A DNA stretch of 64,000 nucleotides from Acidiluteibacter ferrifornacis (GTDB taxonomy: Bacteria; Bacteroidota; Bacteroidia; Flavobacteriales_E; Vicingaceae). The notes under the pieces were generated by a model. That model was not told where the DNA came from and did not search any database. It saw only the letters and a program-made list of their open reading frames with translations. Position 1 is the first letter of the stretch, and every line of letters starts with the position of its first letter. Below, in pieces: positions 9,262 through 20,933 of the stretch. The stretch covers positions 62,001 through 126,000 of the forward strand of contig NZ_WWNE01000003.1 in NCBI RefSeq assembly GCF_009909615.1, read 5' to 3'. Position numbers and translations under genes: made by a program.

Positions 9262-10266
9262 ATGCCCAGAATTGCTGAAAGTGCGCTTTACTTTCCATCC
9301 AAAACTTTTACTAATGAAGATTTCTTCCTCAAGTTTCCAGAGGAGAGAGATAGTAAGACTTGGCCCAAATTAGGCATCCACAATCGTCATATTATAGCGG
9401 ATAACGAAGTGCCATCGGACATGGGACTAAAAGCAGCCGAAAAACTACTTAATGACCATCCACATTTAAGGACAGAAATCGATTTTATACTTTTCACCTC
9501 TCCTGAACGTGATTATTACACTCCAATAACTGCAGGCGTCTTACAACATAAATTAGGGTTAAAAACTGATTTAGGAGCGATGGACGTGCATCAAGGATGT
9601 AGTAGTTTTATTTATCTACTTTCACATGCCGATGGACTGATTAAAATAGGTGCAGCAACAAAAGTATTAGTAATTGCTGTTTCCTCTCTTACTAGAACAA
9701 TTGACGAAAATGACAAGGCGAACCGTTTCATCTTTGGTGATGGTGCAGCAGCCTATATAATTGAAAAATCAGAAGAACAAGTTTTCCATAGTTATTACTT
9801 TGGAAATGATGGAAGTAAAAAAGACAAAATCATCATAAGGGATGGAGAAAATAGACACCCAATAAATGAGGACTCATACATCCCTTTTACAAATGAATTT
9901 GGTGAACAACAGATTCCAGCTAAATTCTATCAGGATGGGGCTGGCGTATTTCGGTTTACTTTAGACCGTATACCTAAAATGATTCAATTGATTTTGGATA
10001 AAAATGACCTAAAAAAAGATGATATTGACCTATATTTGCTTCACCAACCCAATGAATTTATTGTAAAAGCTTTAACAAAAGTTGCTAAACTACCAGAAGA
10101 AAAAGTAGTCATAGATGTTGCTAACTATGGTAATACTGTAAGTTTATCAATCGCAATATTAATTCACAATTTAAATCAACAAAACAGAATCAAACCTGGA
10201 ATGAGAATTTTAATCGCAGCCTTTGGAACCGGCTTAAGCTGGAATGGCTGTATCTGGGAAACATAA
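9262..10266 (+). CDS. Ketoacyl-ACP synthase III family protein (first of two)
   Basis: Thiolase-fold condensing enzyme of 334 residues. The catalytic triad is complete: C113 (HQGCSSF), H261 (LLHQPNEF) and N291 (NYGNTVS), so decarboxylating condensation or acyl transfer from a thioester is possible. The second half keeps the GDGAAA loop. It is probably not the housekeeping FabH, because it heads an operon with its own ACP, a second KASIII, an SDR and sugar-modifying genes. KASIII enzymes in such settings start short or branched acyl chains or act as acyltransferases. A 12-base gap separates it from the ACP gene. Confidence 0.88.
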   Translation: MPRIAESALYFPSKTFTNEDFFLKFPEERDSKTWPKLGIHNRHIIADNEVPSDMGLKAAEKLLNDHPHLRTEIDFILFTSPERDYYTPITAGVLQHKLGLKTDLGAMDVHQGCSSFIYLLSHADGLIKIGAATKVLVIAVSSLTRTIDENDKANRFIFGDGAAAYIIEKSEEQVFHSYYFGNDGSKKDKIIIRDGENRHPINEDSYIPFTNEFGEQQIPAKFYQDGAGVFRFTLDRIPKMIQLILDKNDLKKDDIDLYLLHQPNEFIVKALTKVAKLPEEKVVIDVANYGNTVSLSIAILIHNLNQQNRIKPGMRILIAAFGTGLSWNGCIWET

Positions 10267-10278
10267 ATAAATTATAAA

Positions 10279-10512
10279 ATGAACTGGAAAGATTTCGAAT
10301 CTAATGTAAGAGAAACATTAGAAATTGAAGATAATGTGATTATCGATAAAAATGAACTATTAGAGGATAGCGAATACTGGAGTAGTATGCATGCTTTATT
10401 AATTATGGCTTTGGCAGAATCTGAATACAACATTAGTATAACAGGGGAGGAATTAAGAAATTCAAAAACATTACAGGACCTCTATAACTTGTTCGAATCC
10501 AAATTGTCATAA
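10279..10512 (+). CDS. Acyl carrier protein-like protein
   Basis: A 77-residue acidic four-helix protein with the length and pattern of an acyl carrier protein. The expected phosphopantetheine site at the start of helix II reads W-S35-S36-M37 where most ACPs have DSL/DSM. Ser36 is the likely attachment residue, and Ser replaces the usual Asp before it. The following helix (ALLIMALAESEYNI) and the EEL...TLQDLYNLF C-terminus match the family. It sits between two KASIII genes, sharing one base (TAATG) with the second, so it is presumably their dedicated carrier. Loading by a phosphopantetheinyl transferase is inferred. Confidence 0.82.
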   Translation: MNWKDFESNVRETLEIEDNVIIDKNELLEDSEYWSSMHALLIMALAESEYNISITGEELRNSKTLQDLYNLFESKLS

Positions 10513-11561
10513 TGGCCATTTTCAATATTCCAAATATCCGTATCAATGGCATAAGCAGTGTAGTTCCACAAAAAAAGGTAGCCAACAGAGATTACGATTA
10601 CGTCACCGAGACTGAACGAAATTTTCTAATAAAAACGACTGGAATAGAAGAAAAGAGGCATGCTGAAAAAGGTATAACAACCACAGACCTCGGAGAAAAA
10701 GCGGCTAAAATACTATTGGAGAAACTCAATTGGGAAAGAGAAGATATAGACATCTTAGTACTCGTTACCCAATCTAGAGATTACTATCTCCCTTCTTCTG
10801 CCATCATATTACAAGATCGTTTGGGACTACCCTCTAGCTGTATGGCTTTTGATATAGGACTTGGATGTTCGGGGTATGTCTATGGACTTTCTGTAATTTC
10901 TCAGTTTCTGCAGAACGGGCAGTTAAAAAAAGGTCTGTTAATTTGCGGAGATGTATCAACTATATCTACAAACTATGAGGACAAAAGCACTTACCCCTTA
11001 TTTGGTGATGCTGCCACAGCAACAGCAGTAAGTTTTGAAGAGGGAGCAGATGGTATTCCATTCAATCTGGAAAATGATGGAAAAGGTTTCGATGCCATTA
11101 TAATACGTGATGGAGGTGCCAAAAACCAGCTAAATGATGAAACTACACTTGTAAAAAATTATGGCCCGGGAATCAATCATACAGCAAAAGATTTAGAACT
11201 AAATGGTTTAGATGTATTTTCTTTTTCAGTGAAAGAACCGCCAAAAAACATCCTACAATTAATAGAAAGCTCGAATTACACCAAGGATGAAATCGATTAC
11301 TTTATCTTTCATCAAGCTAACAAATTAATTATAGAAACTATTCGAAAAAAACTTAAGATTGGGCCTGAAAAAGTGCCTTTTTCACTTACAAAATATGGAA
11401 ATACTAGCTCTGCTTCCATCCCCTTAACCATCTGTGACCAATTATCAGTAGATAGTAAGGATAAAAAAATGTTATTCTGCGGCTTTGGAGTTGGATTATC
11501 ATGGGGCAGTTGCATTATCAATACAAAAGACATCGTATGCTTGACACCAATCGAATTTTAG
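10512..11561 (+). CDS. Ketoacyl-ACP synthase III family protein (second of two)
   Basis: Condensing enzyme of 349 residues with the triad C119 (GLGCSGY), H267 (IFHQANK) and N297 (KYGNTSS). It is clearly divergent from the first KASIII in the operon, and its active-site surroundings are closer to classical FabH (GCSG, HQAN). It starts in the stop codon of the ACP gene. Its last 25 bases overlap the likely start of the SDR gene in another frame. Two different KASIII proteins flanking one ACP suggest either a heterodimer or successive condensation and acyl-transfer steps; the substrate is not predictable from sequence. Confidence 0.9.
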   Translation: MAIFNIPNIRINGISSVVPQKKVANRDYDYVTETERNFLIKTTGIEEKRHAEKGITTTDLGEKAAKILLEKLNWEREDIDILVLVTQSRDYYLPSSAIILQDRLGLPSSCMAFDIGLGCSGYVYGLSVISQFLQNGQLKKGLLICGDVSTISTNYEDKSTYPLFGDAATATAVSFEEGADGIPFNLENDGKGFDAIIIRDGGAKNQLNDETTLVKNYGPGINHTAKDLELNGLDVFSFSVKEPPKNILQLIESSNYTKDEIDYFIFHQANKLIIETIRKKLKIGPEKVPFSLTKYGNTSSASIPLTICDQLSVDSKDKKMLFCGFGVGLSWGSCIINTKDIVCLTPIEF

Positions 11562-12292
11562 AAGCTGCTAATTATGACTTTAATGGCAAAAAAATACTAA
11601 TTACAGGAGCTTCCGGAGGAATTGGATTTGCTACAGCCAAAAAATTAATCGATTCAGGAGCTGAAGTATATACCAATTCGCGAAGAGAAATAGAAATAAT
11701 ATCAGAAAATCACCATCATTTTTGTGGTGACATTAGTGAAGATTCGACAATAGAAAAGTGGATTTCTGTTTTACCAAATATTGATGGGGTGGTTTATTCA
11801 GCTGGTATTTTAGACACGATGCCCATTCGATTTGCTAAAAAAGAAAAGATGATGAAAACATGGGACATCAACTTTTTTGCAGCGGTTAATTTAAGTGCTC
11901 AATTAATCAAAAAGAAAAAGCTTAATAAACAAGGCGCCTTTGTATTCATCTCATCCATATCAGCTAAACATCCTTACATAGGTGGAAGCATGTATACTGC
12001 TAGTAAAGCAGCTTTAGAAACTTATTCTAAAGTGCTTGCCTTGGAATTAAAAGGTAAACTTATCCGAAGCAATTGCATTGCGCCAGCTATGGTTAAAACC
12101 GAGATGTATGAAAAAGGCATTGAAAAAGGATCCTTGGAGTTTATGGAAGAGCACGTTGCTAAATATCCATTTGGAGCTGGAGAATCAGAAGACTTGGCTC
12201 AGGCTGCTTGCTTTCTGCTGTCAGATGCAGCACGATGGATTAACGGAATAACTTTAACAATGGACGGCGGTTTTTTATTACAAGGTACTTAA
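11537..12292 (+). CDS. Short-chain dehydrogenase/reductase (FabG-like)
   Basis: NAD(P)-dependent oxidoreductase of 251 residues from the ATG at 11537. The nucleotide motif GASGGIG is at 24-30, YSAG (the NAG-like motif) near 87-90, and the catalytic set S140...Y153-x3-K157 (YTASK). The end of the protein (ITLTMDGGFLL) is typical of FabG-type SDRs. A longer frame from 11501 would lie deep inside the KASIII gene, and the shorter start is preferred. Within this operon the natural role is reduction of a 3-ketoacyl-ACP made by the KASIII proteins; a sugar substrate is the alternative. Confidence 0.88.
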   Translation: MLDTNRILEAANYDFNGKKILITGASGGIGFATAKKLIDSGAEVYTNSRREIEIISENHHHFCGDISEDSTIEKWISVLPNIDGVVYSAGILDTMPIRFAKKEKMMKTWDINFFAAVNLSAQLIKKKKLNKQGAFVFISSISAKHPYIGGSMYTASKAALETYSKVLALELKGKLIRSNCIAPAMVKTEMYEKGIEKGSLEFMEEHVAKYPFGAGESEDLAQAACFLLSDAARWINGITLTMDGGFLLQGT

Positions 12293-12294
12293 TC

Positions 12295-12963
12295 ATGAAA
12301 ATTAAAAAATACGGTCTGGAATTAAAAGAAGTAGAGCGAGAGGATTTAGAACTGATTCGTCAATACCGAAATACTGATATCATTAAAAATAAAATGATTC
12401 ATCGGCAACAAATCACTAGAGAACAACAGCTCGAATGGTTCAAAGAAATTAGAACAGTCAATCACTATTACTTTCTTATCTATAAAAATGACTCTGCGAT
12501 AGGTCTTATCAATGGTAAAAACATTGATTTTGTAAATAAGACTTCTGAAGGGGGAATATTTATCTGGAACGAAGATAGAAATTATGAAATTTCAATTACA
12601 GCTTCCATTATTTTAAATGATTGGAACTTTTTTATCAATGCGTTTGAAAAAAATTATGCTCAAGTACTGAAGTCCAACAAACAAGCCATTGCTTACAATG
12701 AATTCATGGGGTATAAAATAGCTGAAAGGATTCATGAAAATAAAGAAGTCGTATGGATGGAGCAAACCAGGGAGGATTATACTCAATACCGCAAAAAAAT
12801 TGAACTTTTAAAGTTTGACGATTTCAATATCAGTGAACCATTAACAGAGGATGACATCTTTTTTAATGCTGACGAGGAACCTTATGCCAGGAGTATTGTC
12901 GAATTAATCCCTCCTTCCCAACAAGCTATTTACAACAGGATTTTAAAGAGAGCCTTCCCATGA
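12295..12963 (+). CDS. GNAT-like N-acetyltransferase (PseH-like)
   Basis: A 222-residue protein whose first 165 residues resemble the GNAT acetyltransferases of nucleotide-sugar pathways such as PseH: an early LIRQYRN segment, IT.EQQLEWFKEI, then a strand YYFLIYKND..IGLINGKNI, and a late ANDEF-like portion AIAYNEFMGYKIAERI. The last 55 residues are an acidic extension that I cannot assign. It probably transfers an acyl group to an amino sugar. It starts two bases after the SDR stop and overlaps the GT2 start by four bases (ATGA), so it is part of the operon. Confidence 0.65.
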   Translation: MKIKKYGLELKEVEREDLELIRQYRNTDIIKNKMIHRQQITREQQLEWFKEIRTVNHYYFLIYKNDSAIGLINGKNIDFVNKTSEGGIFIWNEDRNYEISITASIILNDWNFFINAFEKNYAQVLKSNKQAIAYNEFMGYKIAERIHENKEVVWMEQTREDYTQYRKKIELLKFDDFNISEPLTEDDIFFNADEEPYARSIVELIPPSQQAIYNRILKRAFP

Positions 12964-13886
12964 AATTAAAAGATCTAAGCATCGTAATTCCTGTTTATCA
13001 AGCAGAAAGTAGCATTGGGAAACTTATAGACCAATTAGAAACAGACTCCTTTTTAAAAACATTAAATTGGGAATTGATTCTTGTTGACGATTGCAGCAAT
13101 GACAGTAGTTACGAAATAATAGAATCAAAAGCAATTGAATATAACAACATAATAGGCCTTACATTACATAAAAATTCTGGGCAACATAGTGCAACTTTAG
13201 CTGGAATCATAGAAGCTAAAGGTGAACTTCTATTAACGATGGATGATGACTTTGAGCATCCTGTTGAAGAAATTGAAGGATTGATTAATGCTTTGAATCG
13301 ACAAAAAGCAGATGTAGTATTTGGCATTCCTGAAAATCAAGAAAAAAACATAATTCGTAAACGAATTAGTAAAGAATTTAAACGTGCTACTCGAAATTTT
13401 TCTGAAGGTTACGGAGAAGGATCAGCTTTCCGATTGATTCGAAAGCAAATTTATTCTCAGCTTGGAAAGCATAAAACGCCGTTTGTTTTTATAGATGAAG
13501 TCTTAGCTTGGTATACCAAAAACGTACTATTTGTGCCCATCAACTTTAATCAGGCAACTAAAAAGTCAACGTATAGATTCTCTAATTTATTTGGACTATT
13601 CTTTAACATCATGTTTACCTACTCTTCTTTTCCAGCACAACTTTTAACTAAAGTCGGAATCGTTGGTAGTTTTATCTCTTTTGGAGTTGGAATCTTTTAC
13701 ATTGTTAAAAAGCTATTTTTCAAGGCACAACTTGGATTTACATCTATTGCTGTATCCATTTTATTCTCAGCCTCTTTAATACTAATGGCTTTGGGAGTCA
13801 TTGCCCAGTACATCTATCGTCAAAACAGATTATTGAATCAATATCCGCAGTTTTCTATCAAAAGTAGAACCGATGAACAGGAGTAA
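12960..13886 (+). CDS. Family 2 glycosyltransferase with two membrane helices (GtrB/DPM1-like)
   Basis: GT-A fold glycosyltransferase anchored in the inner membrane. The nucleotide-sugar site is VDDCSND (D43-D44) and the metal motif is D95-D-D97 (TMDDDFEH), followed by GEGSAFRLIRK. Two C-terminal transmembrane helices (about 227-250 and 257-282) are the hallmark of polyprenyl-phosphate hexose synthases such as GtrB and ArnC. It would make an undecaprenyl-phosphate sugar donor for periplasmic glycosylation. The TMTC-like protein 3 kb downstream uses this class of donor, which is a plausible functional link. Overlaps with both neighbours indicate translational coupling. Confidence 0.87.
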   Translation: MKLKDLSIVIPVYQAESSIGKLIDQLETDSFLKTLNWELILVDDCSNDSSYEIIESKAIEYNNIIGLTLHKNSGQHSATLAGIIEAKGELLLTMDDDFEHPVEEIEGLINALNRQKADVVFGIPENQEKNIIRKRISKEFKRATRNFSEGYGEGSAFRLIRKQIYSQLGKHKTPFVFIDEVLAWYTKNVLFVPINFNQATKKSTYRFSNLFGLFFNIMFTYSSFPAQLLTKVGIVGSFISFGVGIFYIVKKLFFKAQLGFTSIAVSILFSASLILMALGVIAQYIYRQNRLLNQYPQFSIKSRTDEQE

Positions 13887-14613
13887 TATTTGGTATTCCT
13901 ATACTTTAAAACCTTACCTACTTGAAGAGCCAAGTTTCTATAATAAGGAAGACTTTGAATGGGCAAAGCTATTAGAAGATAATTTTGAAATCATCAAAAG
14001 AGAGGCATTGGCCTTTGTTCAAAACAATGAATTAAAGCCCTATTTCAATAAAAGTTTACTGAGCCGATCCAATAGTTGGAAAACAGAAGGCCTACTTTTC
14101 TGGGGTTACTTTTTCAAAAAACATCACAGCTCATTCATAGAAACATGGAAAATAGCCAAACAAATTCCAGGTATTGTTTCCTTTTCTATCTCTGAATTGG
14201 ATCCTAATAGTAAAATAAAACCTCACAATGGCGACACCAATGCTATAATTCGTGTCCACCTACCTATTGTAGTCCCATCAGGGCTTCCATTATGTGCCTT
14301 TACAGTGAATGGAGAAACAAGAGCATGGGAAGAAGGTAAGGTGATTTTGTTCAATGATGCACAAAATCACTATGCGCAAAACCTCACTAACCAAAAAAGA
14401 TTAGTCTTATTAATTGATGTCATTCGCCCTGAATTCATTGCATTTAAAACTGAAATTTGTGGCAAAGTATTGAATGGATTAGCATGGCAGGCCATTACTC
14501 AAAGTAAACCAGGAGTCAGAAACTATCCAGTATGGACGAAAAAGATACTTTGGAGCAGCATTCGGTTTATAGCTCGAACGATTTTGAGAATTAATCGATT
14601 ATTTTGGCCCTAA
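13873..14613 (+). CDS. Aspartyl/asparaginyl beta-hydroxylase-like oxygenase (AspH family)
   Basis: Predicted Fe(II)/2-oxoglutarate oxygenase of the Asp_Arg_Hydrox family, 246 residues. Likely iron ligands are H118 (in PHNGD) and H166 (in NDAQNHYAQN); the 2-oxoglutarate-binding arginine is probably R176 (TNQKRLVLLID), with R127 in the RVHLP strand. As in human AspH, the position usually filled by a carboxylate ligand is Gly (H-N-G), so iron would be held by two histidines. Bacterial homologues (LpxO) hydroxylate lipid A acyl chains or act on peptides; in this operon a lipid or acyl substrate is attractive but inferred. It overlaps the GT2 gene by 14 bases and ends the operon. Confidence 0.85.
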   Translation: MNRSNIWYSYTLKPYLLEEPSFYNKEDFEWAKLLEDNFEIIKREALAFVQNNELKPYFNKSLLSRSNSWKTEGLLFWGYFFKKHHSSFIETWKIAKQIPGIVSFSISELDPNSKIKPHNGDTNAIIRVHLPIVVPSGLPLCAFTVNGETRAWEEGKVILFNDAQNHYAQNLTNQKRLVLLIDVIRPEFIAFKTEICGKVLNGLAWQAITQSKPGVRNYPVWTKKILWSSIRFIARTILRINRLFWP

Positions 14614-15578
14614 TGTTTTACATTTCGTCTAATATCCCACTTTAACTTACCAAGGCTAAGGCGAACTAATAAGCTCCAAACCAAAGACTTTTTTGGAGAC
14701 ACCTTAAACTTTCCCTCTACTAAACTCTTGTAATATGCTTGGCTCAATCTATCAATGGATGCAATTTGGGCGCTTGTTAATTCCTTTTCCCACTGTTTCA
14801 TTTTAGATGTATTGATGGGTTTTTGTAAGTTCTCCCACATCGCATATTTTTGTTTTAAATAAGCAGGATCTAACTTTCCGTCTCTTGCCTGCAAAGAGGA
14901 CAAATAGGCATTTATTTTCTGGTCCTTATTCTTCCTAAAATTAAGCATCTCCGACTCAAATGAAACTCCTAAGAAGTCACAAATTAGCTGTGTATACTCT
15001 ACTGGTTGCTCACACATAGCATCATAATGTACCAATAAAAATCGATCAGGGTATTGATTTGCTTGTTTCGCAATCAATTCATTGGTATGATTCCACCAAC
15101 TAGCCAAATAACTATAATCGGCAAAATGCTGAATCTTATGTTTAGCTCTGGATATACAGTTATCTTTTGGCTCTCGAACCATCCAAATAAACTTAGAATC
15201 AGGGAAAAGTGACATTATCTGTGGTAGATAATAACTGTATATTGGATTTTTATCAATTAGAATTGATGGTCTCTCGTGATCTTCTAAACAACTTTCATAG
15301 GTTGCTTTAATGGCATCTTCAAAGTTATTTGCTGCTAAAAAAAGAGATTCCAATCGATTAACATCTGGCTTCGCAAAGTGTAAAAAATCTTGATTAGAAA
15401 GAATAGACTGGAGCATTTCTTGTTTGCTCTGCTCATCAAATTGAAAGGCCTTTGAGAGATGATTTAATAAAACAAAATGCTCAGGATAACTTTTTACCTC
15501 GGCACTCATATCTAACACTTCCCGCAACATGGTAGTTCCGGATCTCCAAATACCTACTACAAAGTGTATCTCAGGCAT
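14610..15578 (-). CDS. Sulfotransferase (first of an overlapping pair)
   Basis: PAPS-dependent sulfotransferase family, 322 residues, cytosolic. The 5'-phosphosulfate loop is G9-I-W-R-S-G-T-T16, and the 3'-phosphate motif is VREPKDNCIS, with Arg and Ser. Proteins of this type sulfate carbohydrates or lipids, or are stand-alone domains of unknown target. The start at 15578 overlaps the upstream sulfotransferase stop by eight bases, so the two are co-translated. Its end converges with the AspH-like gene (four-base overlap). The pairing suggests two sulfation positions on the product of this region; this is inference. Confidence 0.87.
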   Translation of the reverse strand: MPEIHFVVGIWRSGTTMLREVLDMSAEVKSYPEHFVLLNHLSKAFQFDEQSKQEMLQSILSNQDFLHFAKPDVNRLESLFLAANNFEDAIKATYESCLEDHERPSILIDKNPIYSYYLPQIMSLFPDSKFIWMVREPKDNCISRAKHKIQHFADYSYLASWWNHTNELIAKQANQYPDRFLLVHYDAMCEQPVEYTQLICDFLGVSFESEMLNFRKNKDQKINAYLSSLQARDGKLDPAYLKQKYAMWENLQKPINTSKMKQWEKELTSAQIASIDRLSQAYYKSLVEGKFKVSPKKSLVWSLLVRLSLGKLKWDIRRNVKH

Positions 15579-16635
15579 TTTCTTTAATTACTTTATCTAG
15601 TTTACTTTTCTTATTCACAAAAACATTTTGAATGAGAAAAGACCTAAGCCAAACAATTGATTTATATGGGAGGTTATACAAAAAAGTATTTCCATACCTG
15701 TGAAAACCATAACCCAAAGAATAAGCTAACTTCTCATTGATTGTCACTTTTCTTTGAGGTAGATCAATCACATATCCATACCGCTCAGCATATGGAAAAC
15801 TAACTGATTCAATAGTTCTAACTTGTGCCTCACTTAACTTTACTTTATAATGTCCAATCTTTTTTGGATCTAATGGTTTTACAGAAGATTGATGTTGTTC
15901 TTTTAGTGACTCGCTAAATTTTTCCTCAAACTTTTCTTTAAAACCCAACCTTTTCTCTTCCAATTCAGCAAGAGAATCAATACCAGTAAAATCTTCGAAT
16001 TTTCTAAAGAAAGTGTGTTTATCAATCACCAAATCTTCAAACTTCAATGTTATGTATCGACTTTTCTCTTTTGATTCACATTTATCATAATGCAAATTAT
16101 ACTCCAACCATTTGTTGGATAACAATCCTACTTTCTTACGCGTAAATTTTACATGTGAGGTAATATTATCTCGAGGATCTCTAATAATTCGTATGAACTT
16201 TCCATCTTGAAAGATTTGACCTAGCCTTTCAATAAACAGTGTATATCGAGGATTTTTATCTACTATAAATTTTATCTTTCCCTTTTGAAAACTTGAATTT
16301 CTGTAGATATAAATTACCTTAATTAAGTCTTGGACTTTAGTTTCAGCTGGTAATTGTTTCAACTGTGAAATAAGCGCTTCCTTATGAAACTCCCACAAAA
16401 ACTTAACTCTATAATCCTGCATTACGGTGTCAAAAAGCTCTTCTGCAAGTTCAGGCTTCCATTCATTTAAGTTTTTGTACCTCTGCCACACTAACAAAAG
16501 AAATCTAGACTCAGTTGCCGAAGCTACATTTGGGTGACTATCAAGGATTGTGCTGAGCAAGGTGGTTCCGCTTCTTCCTTTACCAACAATAAAAAAGATA
16601 GGAATTGACCGCAGTTCTTCTAAAGTATAATTCAT
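15571..16635 (-). CDS. Sulfotransferase (second of an overlapping pair)
   Basis: PAPS-dependent sulfotransferase of 354 residues from the ATG at 16635; an in-frame TTG at 16644 is a less likely start. The phosphosulfate loop G18-K-G-R-S-G-T-T25 is followed by LLSTILDSHPN. The 3'-phosphate motif is IRDPRDNITS. A C-terminal extension (about 270-354) beyond the core domain is rich in Tyr, Lys and Arg and has no match I can name. The upstream gap of 53 bases to the divergent TMTC-like gene must hold both promoters. Diverged clearly from its partner, so not a recent duplication. Confidence 0.87.
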   Translation of the reverse strand: MNYTLEELRSIPIFFIVGKGRSGTTLLSTILDSHPNVASATESRFLLLVWQRYKNLNEWKPELAEELFDTVMQDYRVKFLWEFHKEALISQLKQLPAETKVQDLIKVIYIYRNSSFQKGKIKFIVDKNPRYTLFIERLGQIFQDGKFIRIIRDPRDNITSHVKFTRKKVGLLSNKWLEYNLHYDKCESKEKSRYITLKFEDLVIDKHTFFRKFEDFTGIDSLAELEEKRLGFKEKFEEKFSESLKEQHQSSVKPLDPKKIGHYKVKLSEAQVRTIESVSFPYAERYGYVIDLPQRKVTINEKLAYSLGYGFHRYGNTFLYNLPYKSIVWLRSFLIQNVFVNKKSKLDKVIKENA

Positions 16636-16688
16636 AGTATTCAAAATAATTCATTCAAAGAAAAGATTTCTTTTTCTAATTTAGAAAA

Positions 16689-18575
16689 ATGAATTTCCAA
16701 AAGCTACTATCTACAGAAAACGGGCTCGTTGAAACTTCAAGTAAACGCTGGTCTTTTTTAATTTTGTTAATTACTTGTTTTGTTTTTTATGGTAACACCC
16801 TTCAAAACGGTTATAATCTGGATGACAACTACGCCTATACTGCCAATAAAAATGCTACAAATGGGCTTTCAAACATTAAGTCCATCTTTACAGAAAATAC
16901 CTTTTCTCAATCCGCTTATAGTTATGGTTATCGACCCATAACTACACTAAGCTTTGCCATAGAAAATGAGCTATTTGGAATTAATTCAACCATAAGTCAT
17001 TTGATCAACGTTTTAGTCTACTTCAGCTCTTGTTGTATTTTTCTTTTGATGATTGGGTCCACGTTTCCAAATGTAAAATTTGGCACCACTTTAACTTGTG
17101 TCTTTTTCTTTACCATCCTCCCTATACATACAGAAATTGTAAACAACGTAAAATCAAGAGATGAATTATTGATGTTGCTGTTTTGTTTATCCTCTACTTA
17201 TCTTTTCTTGCAAACTCACAAAAAAACTTCACTCATAATCCCTGCGATAATCTTCCTCATTTTGGGAATCTTAAGTAAGAAAACGGGACTTATTTTTTTA
17301 GGAATTATTCCTACCGCAATTTACTTTCAATCGAAAATAAAAGCAAAATATCTTATCGGCTTTTCTGGACTTATCTTTTTGGCTCCCATAGCCATACGCG
17401 TTATGCGAAAAATTACTAAAGTAGACGAAACCGTTCGAATTTATACAGGTATTGAAAATCCACTTTTCGACCCTTCTATTGAAATTGACCGTATAAGTTT
17501 TAGTTTAAACACTTTATGGTTTTACTTTAAGAAAATGCTGTTTACTAACCATTTAGTTTCCTACTATGGATACCATACCATTCCCATTAAAGGTTATAAC
17601 CTAGCTTCCATAGCAACAATTCTAATTTTTATTACCCTAACATATATCGCATTAAAAAATTTTAAACGTAAAAGTCCTGTGTCATTTGGAATAATAGTGA
17701 TGTTCGGAGGCTTACTTCCTTTTGTAAATTGGCTTATTCCTTTAGTTGGAATAGTTGCTGAACGATTCGCTACAGTAGCTACAATTGGTCTAAGCATATT
17801 TATTCCTTTTGGTATAATCGAACTACTTTCTAAATTTAAAAAAGTTGAGAAACCACAGTTAATTAGCATGTCTTTATTACTATTATATGCTACCTTTTCC
17901 TTTTTTACTATTCAGGCTAGAAATAAAGAATGGAAAAGCGACGAAACTTTATTTGCTGCTGATGTTATAAAAGAACCCAATAGTGCTACCTTACAAGCTC
18001 TGATTGGCAAAGTGTATATTAATAAAATTCCAAAACTAAGTTCTGACCAACTAAAAGTAAGTTTAGGGAAAAAGGCCATATCGCATCTCGAAAAATCGGT
18101 AAGTATATTTGAAGACAAATACAACCTCACTGATTTAGGTAGCTTGTATTTTAGAGCATTATTAAATTATAATAAAGCAAAAATAGTTTACAATAGAGCC
18201 ATTCAAATAGATTCTAACTATGCAGACCCCCACTATCACCTAGGTTGGGTTTCAATGGCACAAAAAGACACTTCAGAGGCCATTCAACAATTTAGAAGGG
18301 CTATTGAGATCAAACCCTCTTACATCGCATGTTATGAACCACTAATTAAATTGTTAATCTATTCAGATAGAAAAGATGAGGCGCTATTGATTAATACAAA
18401 AGCTCTAGAAAAATATCCTTCCGAGTTATCGTTAATTTTAAACCAAGCGAATGTGTACTACATAAAAAATGATTTCCCAAATGCAATTTTATGGTTTGAA
18501 AAGTACCTATCATTGCAACCGAACAATCAGAATATTCGAAATTTTGTGAATCAATTAAAATCTAAACCACTTTAA
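16689..18575 (+). CDS. TMTC-like multi-spanning membrane protein with C-terminal TPRs
   Basis: Polytopic inner-membrane protein of 628 residues. Roughly the first 400 residues form many transmembrane helices in a GT-C-like arrangement, beginning with a loop NGYNLDDNY that resembles the acidic first loop of PMT/TMTC O-mannosyltransferases. Residues about 480-620 are TPR repeats (for example YADPHYHLGWVSMAQKDTSEAIQQFRRAIEI). Eukaryotic TMTC proteins transfer mannose from a lipid-linked donor to protein Ser/Thr; bacterial relatives are poorly studied. Here it may use the polyprenyl-sugar made by the nearby GT2. The ATG at 16689 is the only good start. Confidence 0.75.
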   Translation: MNFQKLLSTENGLVETSSKRWSFLILLITCFVFYGNTLQNGYNLDDNYAYTANKNATNGLSNIKSIFTENTFSQSAYSYGYRPITTLSFAIENELFGINSTISHLINVLVYFSSCCIFLLMIGSTFPNVKFGTTLTCVFFFTILPIHTEIVNNVKSRDELLMLLFCLSSTYLFLQTHKKTSLIIPAIIFLILGILSKKTGLIFLGIIPTAIYFQSKIKAKYLIGFSGLIFLAPIAIRVMRKITKVDETVRIYTGIENPLFDPSIEIDRISFSLNTLWFYFKKMLFTNHLVSYYGYHTIPIKGYNLASIATILIFITLTYIALKNFKRKSPVSFGIIVMFGGLLPFVNWLIPLVGIVAERFATVATIGLSIFIPFGIIELLSKFKKVEKPQLISMSLLLLYATFSFFTIQARNKEWKSDETLFAADVIKEPNSATLQALIGKVYINKIPKLSSDQLKVSLGKKAISHLEKSVSIFEDKYNLTDLGSLYFRALLNYNKAKIVYNRAIQIDSNYADPHYHLGWVSMAQKDTSEAIQQFRRAIEIKPSYIACYEPLIKLLIYSDRKDEALLINTKALEKYPSELSLILNQANVYYIKNDFPNAILWFEKYLSLQPNNQNIRNFVNQLKSKPL

Positions 18576-18578
18576 TAG

Positions 18579-19631
18579 TTAGCTTTTCTTTCTTTTTTGG
18601 ATATAATCATCTAATTGTCCATGCTCAGCCATATGGATAAGATTTATATCTTGTTTATAGAGCTTATACGCCTTCCATATAGGAGGGTTTGTGGCAAAAG
18701 CATCCAGAAATGTATACAATTTAGAACTTTTAAAGCAATATGCAGGTGGTAACCATCTGTAGCCAACACCGATAGAATTACCAACATTCTTTACCGAATG
18801 CCAATAAAATGGAGGATTCCATAATACATCTCCCGGTTTTAGATGCACACTATAACCATCAATATATTGAAACAATTTATAAGGTCCGGAAAAGTCTGGA
18901 TTGAAGGGATCAAATGGGCCTGATTCAGTTTTAGCGGGACCATCTCTATAAACATTCCGAACTGGATTTGGATCTACAATTGGGGTATGTTTTGGATGAT
19001 ACAGCATCCATTTCTTCTCACCGTACACTTGGGTAAACAAATTACACTGATTGGCATTGTGAATGGGAGTTATTGTATTATCTCCTCCCATAAATACTTG
19101 AAATGCTTCGAATAGAGTTCCTCTATTTCTACGCTCTCGCAACCACTTATAATCAAAATCAAGGATATGCTCAGGATGCTTGTCCAATAATGGATAAAAA
19201 CGATAATACTTTCCCGTTCCTTTATGAATACCATCAATTAAATCAGCCAAAGTCATTACCTCATAGGGGTTTTCCATTTTTAACTGGTCGGCCATAACTA
19301 TAACGTCTTCTCCGTGTAGCTTTTTAAAATAATCCAGACTCCATTCCTTCACACAGTTCCATTCCTTAGCAGCACCTTCTAAAATTACAGGCTTCATCCC
19401 ATCCACATACTCACGCTGAAATTCTTCTAAACTTAAATTAGTCCGTCTTTCTACAGGAATTATTTCACCTGGCCCCTGTTCTTTGAGACTACTTTCTAAT
19501 TGAACATAAAACTTCCTTCTATTCTTTAAGGTCATGCTATAGGCTCTCTTTCTCCCCAAAAAATGATCTAAAATTTGATACTGGGCGTACTTTCTAAGTT
19601 GCGCCGAAGTAATTTTAATGTTTATATCCAT
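18579..19631 (-). CDS. FIH-like cupin_8 (JmjC-type) protein with HxA motif, paralogue 1
   Basis: A 350-residue cupin_8/JmjC-fold protein related to FIH-1. The core aligns without gaps to the FIH iron site: TPIH191-N-A193-NQCNLFTQVYGEKKW against TPAH-Y-D in FIH, so the Asp ligand is replaced by Ala. The distal histidine is H278 (NPPFYWHSV), and GDVLWNPP precedes it as in active enzymes. Possible roles are a two-histidine oxygenase, a halogenase-like enzyme or an inactive binding protein. It is the downstream member of a tandem pair, nine bases after its paralogue. It converges with the TMTC gene (three-base gap). Confidence 0.82.
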   Translation of the reverse strand: MDINIKITSAQLRKYAQYQILDHFLGRKRAYSMTLKNRRKFYVQLESSLKEQGPGEIIPVERRTNLSLEEFQREYVDGMKPVILEGAAKEWNCVKEWSLDYFKKLHGEDVIVMADQLKMENPYEVMTLADLIDGIHKGTGKYYRFYPLLDKHPEHILDFDYKWLRERRNRGTLFEAFQVFMGGDNTITPIHNANQCNLFTQVYGEKKWMLYHPKHTPIVDPNPVRNVYRDGPAKTESGPFDPFNPDFSGPYKLFQYIDGYSVHLKPGDVLWNPPFYWHSVKNVGNSIGVGYRWLPPAYCFKSSKLYTFLDAFATNPPIWKAYKLYKQDINLIHMAEHGQLDDYIQKRKKS

Positions 19632-19640
19632 ACTTCAGAT

Positions 19641-20684
19641 TTAAGCCTTTTGGTTTGCAAGGTATTCTTTTAACATTCCACCTTCTAATAAATGAATTAA
19701 ATTGGCATCCTTCTGTACAAATTTTAAAGACTTCCATATCGGCGGATTCACTACCATAGTATCCAAAAAAGCATACAAAGGAGCTAGTTGATAACAATAA
19801 AGTGGAGCGCACCATCGGTATCCAACCCCTATTGACATTCCCACATTTTCTACTGCATGCCAGTAATAAGGAGGATTCCATAAAACATCCCCGGGTTTTA
19901 AATGCACTGAATACCCGCTTGTATAGTTAAACAAACTATATGGTGGTGAGTAGTCAGGTTTAAAAGGATTAAAAGGCCCTTCTTTCTTTTTGAAAGGTGC
20001 GCTTCGATAAATTCCTTTTACTGGATCAGGGTCGATTATGGCTGTGTCGTTGGGATGATAAAGTACCCACTTTTTTTCCCCTACCACTTGCGTAAAAAGG
20101 TTAGGTAGGTTAGCACTATGCATTGGAGTAATCGTTTTATCGCCACCCATAAAAACTTGAAAAGCCTCTAAAAAAGAAAACCTATTTTTCTTACTTCTCA
20201 ACCATTCGTAATCAAAATCCAATAGATGCTCTGGGTGTCTTTTTAACAATGGATAAAAGCGGTAATATTTCCCACTACCTTGATTGATTTCATCAATGAG
20301 TTTGCCCAAAGTCAATTTTTCGTAGGGATTTTCTATTTTATACTGATCGGCCATCACAATTTCATCAGTACCATGTAGTGATTTGAAGTAATCAAAACTC
20401 CATTTTTTTACACAATCCCATTCTTTAGCAGCTCCTTCAAAAACAACAGGGATCCCTCTTTTTAAGTATTTTTCCTTAAACTCTGCATCACTTAAATCTT
20501 TCCTTCGATCTATAGGTATTAATTGCTGCTCTCCATTCCTTTTCAAATCATTAAAGAGATTATCATAAAATTTCTTTCGACTCTTTATAGTCAAAGATTT
20601 CCCCTTTTTACGACCTATGAAGTGATCGAGCAATGCATAATAAGCATATTGTCTTAATTGACTTTTATTCAACGATTCTGACAT
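19641..20684 (-). CDS. FIH-like cupin_8 (JmjC-type) protein with HxA motif, paralogue 2
   Basis: Close paralogue of the next gene over its full 347 residues, including the shared N-terminus (QLRQYAYYALLDHFIGRKK). Iron-site region: TPMH189-S-A191-NLPNLFTQ, distal H276 (NPPYYWHAV); again Ala where FIH has the Asp ligand. The frame is open to an ATG at 20900, but the extra 72 residues look like translated spacer, and the paralogue alignment begins at the ATG at 20684. No signal peptide is seen, so a cytosolic protein is expected. A 321-base untranslated region lies upstream. Confidence 0.82.
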   Translation of the reverse strand: MSESLNKSQLRQYAYYALLDHFIGRKKGKSLTIKSRKKFYDNLFNDLKRNGEQQLIPIDRRKDLSDAEFKEKYLKRGIPVVFEGAAKEWDCVKKWSFDYFKSLHGTDEIVMADQYKIENPYEKLTLGKLIDEINQGSGKYYRFYPLLKRHPEHLLDFDYEWLRSKKNRFSFLEAFQVFMGGDKTITPMHSANLPNLFTQVVGEKKWVLYHPNDTAIIDPDPVKGIYRSAPFKKKEGPFNPFKPDYSPPYSLFNYTSGYSVHLKPGDVLWNPPYYWHAVENVGMSIGVGYRWCAPLYCYQLAPLYAFLDTMVVNPPIWKSLKFVQKDANLIHLLEGGMLKEYLANQKA

Positions 20685-20850: not shown

Positions 20851-20933
20851 GAAACCCATTCAAATTTCTTATGACTCCTCCATAAAAACTTCGAACGCAA
20901 TCAAGTGCAAAGTTGCAAACGTTATAGGAGCAA

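Follow-up and report, generated by a model that had tools for sequence, protein, structure and literature searches.

A clade of JmjC-fold Cupin_8 proteins with alanine at the position of the iron-binding aspartate, represented by a tandem pair in Acidiluteibacter ferrifornacis

Described enzymes with and without the carboxylate ligand

Enzymes of the JmjC fold are usually held to need an HxD/E motif, and proteins that lack the carboxylate are as a rule assumed to be inactive. Most characterised 2-oxoglutarate (2OG) enzymes with an HxA motif are halogenases, and some halogenases use carrier-bound substrates. In SyrB2, alanine at the ligand position admits chloride, whereas the D414A and D414G variants of a prolyl hydroxylase (P4H) are inactive and gain no halogenase activity (PMC2767507). 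AspH is a natural two-histidine hydroxylase that holds water at the vacant position and does not halogenate (PMC13168262). In FIH, D201G keeps some activity, D201A is inactive and an exchange of aspartate for glutamate is not tolerated (PMC8252765). Because the P4H, AspH and FIH precedents diverge, the HxA motif alone implies neither a halogenase nor an oxygenase. A natural and conserved HxA clade of the JmjC fold offers a direct test of the need for the carboxylate, and also of the route from a hydroxylase fold to a halogenase. Judged from its sequences, the HxA clade described here is a genuine and conserved group that departs from the canonical JmjC rule.

The tandem pair P1/P2 and its iron site

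The window, a stretch of 64,000 nucleotides, carries two neighbouring genes, P1 and P2, which are separated by 9 bp and encode proteins of about 60% identity (Table 1). For P2, a TTG at 20900 provides an alternative start that would yield 419 aa; homologues begin near the ATG. Scores against Pfam PF13621 (101 bits for P1 and 100 bits for P2, with a curated cut-off of 27.4) place both in Cupin_8. The Pfam search returned Cupin_8/JmjC models only, with no match to PF05118, the AspH family, and the NCBIfam search yielded no match. The AlphaFold (AF2) model of P1 has a pLDDT of 92.2, and comparison of the predicted fold with the PDB by Foldseek put JMJD5 (KDM8, a JmjC arginyl hydroxylase) at the top (E=5.3e-19, TM 0.84 by target length). 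JMJD5 is also the closest solved relative by sequence (1.3e-17; profile 2.6e-28), followed by FIH (5.6e-13). The first-pass annotation had described the pair as FIH-like; the shared register stands, but JMJD5 is the nearer relative by all three measures.

In the HMMER alignment the HNA motif of P1 lies on HQD of JMJD5, with an identical distance of 15 residues from the histidine to the 2OG lysine, and the iron and 2OG residues of P1 and P2 are spaced as in JMJD5. The claim that the aspartate ligand is alanine in both copies was confirmed, in register with JMJD5 and FIH and with the residue numbers originally given, and the distal histidine (H278 and H276) and the GDVLWNPP loop are indeed retained. 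Neither P1 (HNA) nor P2 (HSA) contains the canonical HxD/E...H facial triad, and the two histidines are the only iron-ligand residues in their sequences. JMJD5 has HQD where the bacterial proteins have HNA and HSA, and differs further in that about 60 N-terminal residues form a conserved helical region in the HxA clade. FIH D201A and D201G (PDB 2ilm, 3d8c) share fold and register and are engineered versions of the change seen in P1/P2; there the exchange is artificial and D201A is inactive, whereas alanine is the natural state in the HxA clade. AspH is a natural two-histidine 2OG oxygenase, and a PF05118 gene with an HNG motif lies about 4 kb from P1/P2, but AspH belongs to another Pfam family and has HxG instead of HxA. 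The SyrB2-type Fe/2OG halogenases share HxA and the distal histidine with the clade, but they form a separate protein family and the likeness to P1/P2 is one of motif.

Table 1 Features of the P1/P2 locus, with positions in the window.
Feature	Position	Strand	Basis or remark
Beta-ketoacyl-ACP synthase III-like (KAS III)	9262..10266	+	Sequence match
Putative acyl carrier protein (ACP), 77 aa	10279..10512	+	Position and look; no Pfam match
Second beta-ketoacyl-ACP synthase III-like	10512..11561	+	Sequence match
Short-chain dehydrogenase (SDR), ketoacyl reductase-like	11501..12292	+	Sequence match
GNAT-type acyltransferase, PseH-like	12295..12963	+	Below cut-off
Family 2 glycosyltransferase (GT2)	12960..13886	+	Pfam
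Aspartyl/asparaginyl hydroxylase-like, own HNG two-His motif	13873..14613	+	PF05118
Sulfotransferase, recurrent neighbour (family F3)	14610..15578	-	PF13469
Sulfotransferase	15571..16644	-	PF13469
Multi-pass membrane protein, TPR repeats, TMTC-like by inspection	16689..18575	+	Pfam and inspection
P1, Cupin_8/JMJD5-like, HxA variant, 350 aa	18579..19631	-	Pfam PF13621, E=1.3e-28
P1 distal iron ligand H278	18798..18800	-	Invariant in 41/41
P1 N272, polar, clade-typical, within GDVLWNPP	18816..18818	-	Met/Ile in Bacteroidota HxD relatives
P1 iron motif H191-N192-A193, codons CAC AAT GCC	19053..19061	-	Aligned to JMJD5 HQD
P2, tandem paralogue of P1, HxA variant, 347 aa from ATG	19641..20684	-	PF13621, E=2.8e-28
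P2 distal iron ligand H276	19857..19859	-	Sequence alignment
P2 iron motif H189-S190-A191, codons CAT AGT GCT	20112..20120	-	Codon-level check

Distribution, ancestry and selection of the HxA clade

Contigs from 84,980 species were scanned with sequence patterns not containing the HxA motif, which yielded 29 loci; further members, from the window's order, came from profile searches, and the resulting set comprises 41 full-length homologues. Because 37 of these have alanine at the ligand position and none has aspartate (two have serine and two glutamate, such that 39 of 41 lack a carboxylate), compared with HxD in 30 of 30 generic Bacteroidota Cupin_8 matches, HxA is not a chance state. Both iron histidines are invariant in all 41 members; one of the fetch patterns (WNPPFYWH) spans the distal histidine and N272, so that their conservation may partly reflect ascertainment, while the alanine lies in none of the patterns. 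Equally invariant (41/41) are Y142, N197 and K206 as well as threonine or serine at position 188, which, from knowledge of FIH and JMJD5, we take to be the 2OG-binding residues. The first-pass annotation had named two possible signs of decay, HxD as the majority state within the clade and loss of the distal histidine or 2OG residues in relatives. Alanine is instead the majority state, no HxD homologue occurs among the 41, and every intact relative has kept the distal histidine and the 2OG lysine.

The clade is rare and patchy, with members in 8 of 46 genomes of the window's order and in neither of two other genomes of the same genus. In a phylum-wide sample of 395 genomes, the window's own is the only one with a member; the next matches there are ordinary Cupin_8 proteins that score no more than about 100 bits and, with few exceptions, have HxD. 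A mobile or viral origin was rejected, as no relative was confirmed among viral contigs or phages. Literature searches on halogenases with Cupin_8/HXA or JmjC found no description of the clade, which is weak evidence. Tandem pairs recur (the window, L002, L005, L006, L007 and L022). Two family members from Planctomycetota have HNS/HDS replacing HNA (L027:7833-8954, L028:7311-8963), and broken HxA cupin copies occur as a split frame (L003:7953-9071) and as a degenerate fragment (L024:6860-7873).

In the maximum-likelihood tree the non-carboxylate rows together with the two glutamate rows separate from the HxD rows with 100/100 support. On the strength of this split, the alanine is older than the P1/P2 duplication and was inherited from the clade ancestor. 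The earlier proposal that both copies share the change therefore holds; its dating to after this duplication does not. One array (L022:800-10415) contains five copies of the HxA clade, two of them with HIE and HME (GAA codons). As these two are sisters (90/96) inside the HxA clade, glutamate probably re-evolved once in this array, in which HxA and HxE copies stand side by side as a natural experiment on the carboxylate question. Selection on the clade is purifying: the pair L008/L009 has a pN of 0.021 against a pS of 0.39 (omega about 0.04), and P1 compared with L001 has a dN of 0.13 with saturated dS.

Position 272, six residues before the distal histidine, is N, S or T in 42 of 43 non-carboxylate tree rows (the exception is an HxA row with Leu), Met or Ile in 10 of 10 HxD rows, and Val in one and Asn in the other of the two glutamate rows; with two independent contrasts the co-change of positions 193 and 272 has no statistical power and is descriptive only. 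Farther relatives without a carboxylate have HCT, HCA and HAS in two genomes of the Planctomycetota sample, and HCA in a Cupin_8 protein from one Bacteroidota genome. An HCA Cupin_8 gene also resides on plasmid p2 of Planktothrix agardhii (L105:7713-8816) between a squalene-hopene-cyclase-like gene and P450 genes, and its product is a candidate tailoring enzyme of a terpenoid-type cluster. A very divergent HCA Cupin_8 (L066:1186-2373) comes from another Bacteroidota family; its own genome was the sole match among 247.

Gene neighbourhood and readings of P1/P2 function

The pair ends a cluster comprising KAS III, the putative ACP, the second KAS III, SDR, GNAT, GT2, the PF05118 gene, sulfotransferases and the TPR protein. 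The same gene families lie beside the cupin in L005, L006, L007, L022 and L024, and partly in L013. A PF05118 gene is found inside 6 of 28 fetched loci, with about 0.2 expected from a density of about 1.6 per genome, for genomes that are not independent of each other. The KAS-ACP-KAS-SDR-acyltransferase set matches wfpC-D-E-F-G of Flavobacterium psychrophilum, which also lie beside sugar genes and are the proposed makers of the 3,5-dihydroxyhexanoyl group of the O-polysaccharide; the accessible part of that report mentions neither HxA cupins nor an AspH-like gene alongside (PMC6519341). By this analogy, the set at 9262-12963 suggests hydroxyacyl decoration of an amino sugar.

At 13 of 29 loci (e.g., L001:6342-7967) a multi-pass membrane protein of about 545 aa (range 530-575 aa) with a soluble C-terminal part, F1, is encoded directly upstream of the cupin, in place of or besides neighbours of the acyl-sugar type. 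F1 matched no Pfam family and, at E below 0.001, no fold in the PDB; these results, together with an hhalign value to HTTM of only 59%, do not support its assignment as a vitamin-K-carboxylase/HTTM protein. The window's own genome lacks F1, which is therefore not needed by P1/P2.

The best explanation, to which we give a probability of about 0.5, is that P1 and P2 are working two-histidine Fe(II)/2OG oxygenases of the JmjC fold that activate C-H bonds. The change extends to the whole clade, whose active site is otherwise retained, and on this basis P1 and P2 probably function as enzymes with unusual chemistry. The first-pass annotation's suggestion that they are not dead proteins is well supported by the clade-wide HxA state, the invariant distal histidine and 2OG residues, and the purifying selection. 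Fe(II) would be held by the two histidines and 2OG by the usual Lys, Thr, Asn and Tyr, while the vacant carboxylate position, the third protein-ligand position, would be occupied by water as in AspH. From the neighbourhood, the substrate would be either an amino-sugar unit that carries an acyl group in a surface glycan, or an acyl chain on a carrier protein, supplied by the adjacent KAS/ACP/KAS/SDR/acyltransferase set. This guess may not generalise across the clade, because most homologues lie outside an acyl-sugar cluster and 13 of 29 loci have F1 upstream. Against the oxygenase reading, HxA is mostly a halogenase state among characterised 2OG enzymes. Moreover, FIH D201A, the exact residue change of P1/P2, is reported inactive, unlike D201G (PMC8252765).

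It is doubtful that the pair represents, as the first-pass annotation offered as one option, a JmjC-fold radical halogenase of the SyrB2 kind, in which halide would occupy the aspartate site and the substrate radical on an acyl or glycan carbon would rebound with Cl or Br. This would agree with the nearby ACP candidate and the two KAS genes, considering that some halogenases act on carrier-bound substrates, with the HxA relative in the Planktothrix squalene-cyclase/P450 cluster, and with the polar residue 272 that goes with the ligand change. SyrB2 likewise has alanine in place of the ligand, but exchanging aspartate for alanine or glycine fails to turn P4H into a halogenase (PMC2767507), and AspH, with the same two-histidine geometry, does not halogenate (PMC13168262). 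Searches of Pfam and NCBIfam gave no match to a known halogenase family, and relatives have Ser, Thr and Glu at the same position, a tolerance that would fit a water-filled oxygenase site more easily than a dedicated halide site. A wider proposal is also unlikely: that the clade conserved in Bacteroidota, together with its distant relatives in Planctomycetota and cyanobacteria, constitutes the first JmjC-fold family of radical halogenases, which would chlorinate or brominate acyl groups of surface glycans or terpenoids, and that the L022 glutamate copies might have gone back to hydroxylation.

We also consider it unlikely that P1 and P2 are catalytically silent binders of 2OG/Fe or another ligand, i.e., pseudo-oxygenases with a structural or sensing role, perhaps as partners of each other or, in relatives, of the upstream membrane protein. 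The inactivation of FIH by exactly this change of aspartate to alanine (PMC8252765) and the recurring tandem pairs, which are compatible with partner subunits, speak for such a role. However, the invariance of both iron histidines and all presumed 2OG residues goes beyond the need of a silent scaffold, and the re-evolution of glutamate in two copies suggests that the metal site is still in use. Decay of duplicates confined to the window's genome, for which broken copies in two relatives (the split gene of L003 and the fragments of L024) could be cited, is rejected as highly improbable, because the HxA state is clade-wide and predates the duplication, P1 and P2 themselves are unbroken and conserved, and both histidines and the presumed 2OG contacts are invariant under purifying selection.

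The PF05118 protein with its HNG motif represents a second family of two-histidine 2OG enzymes in the window's cluster.
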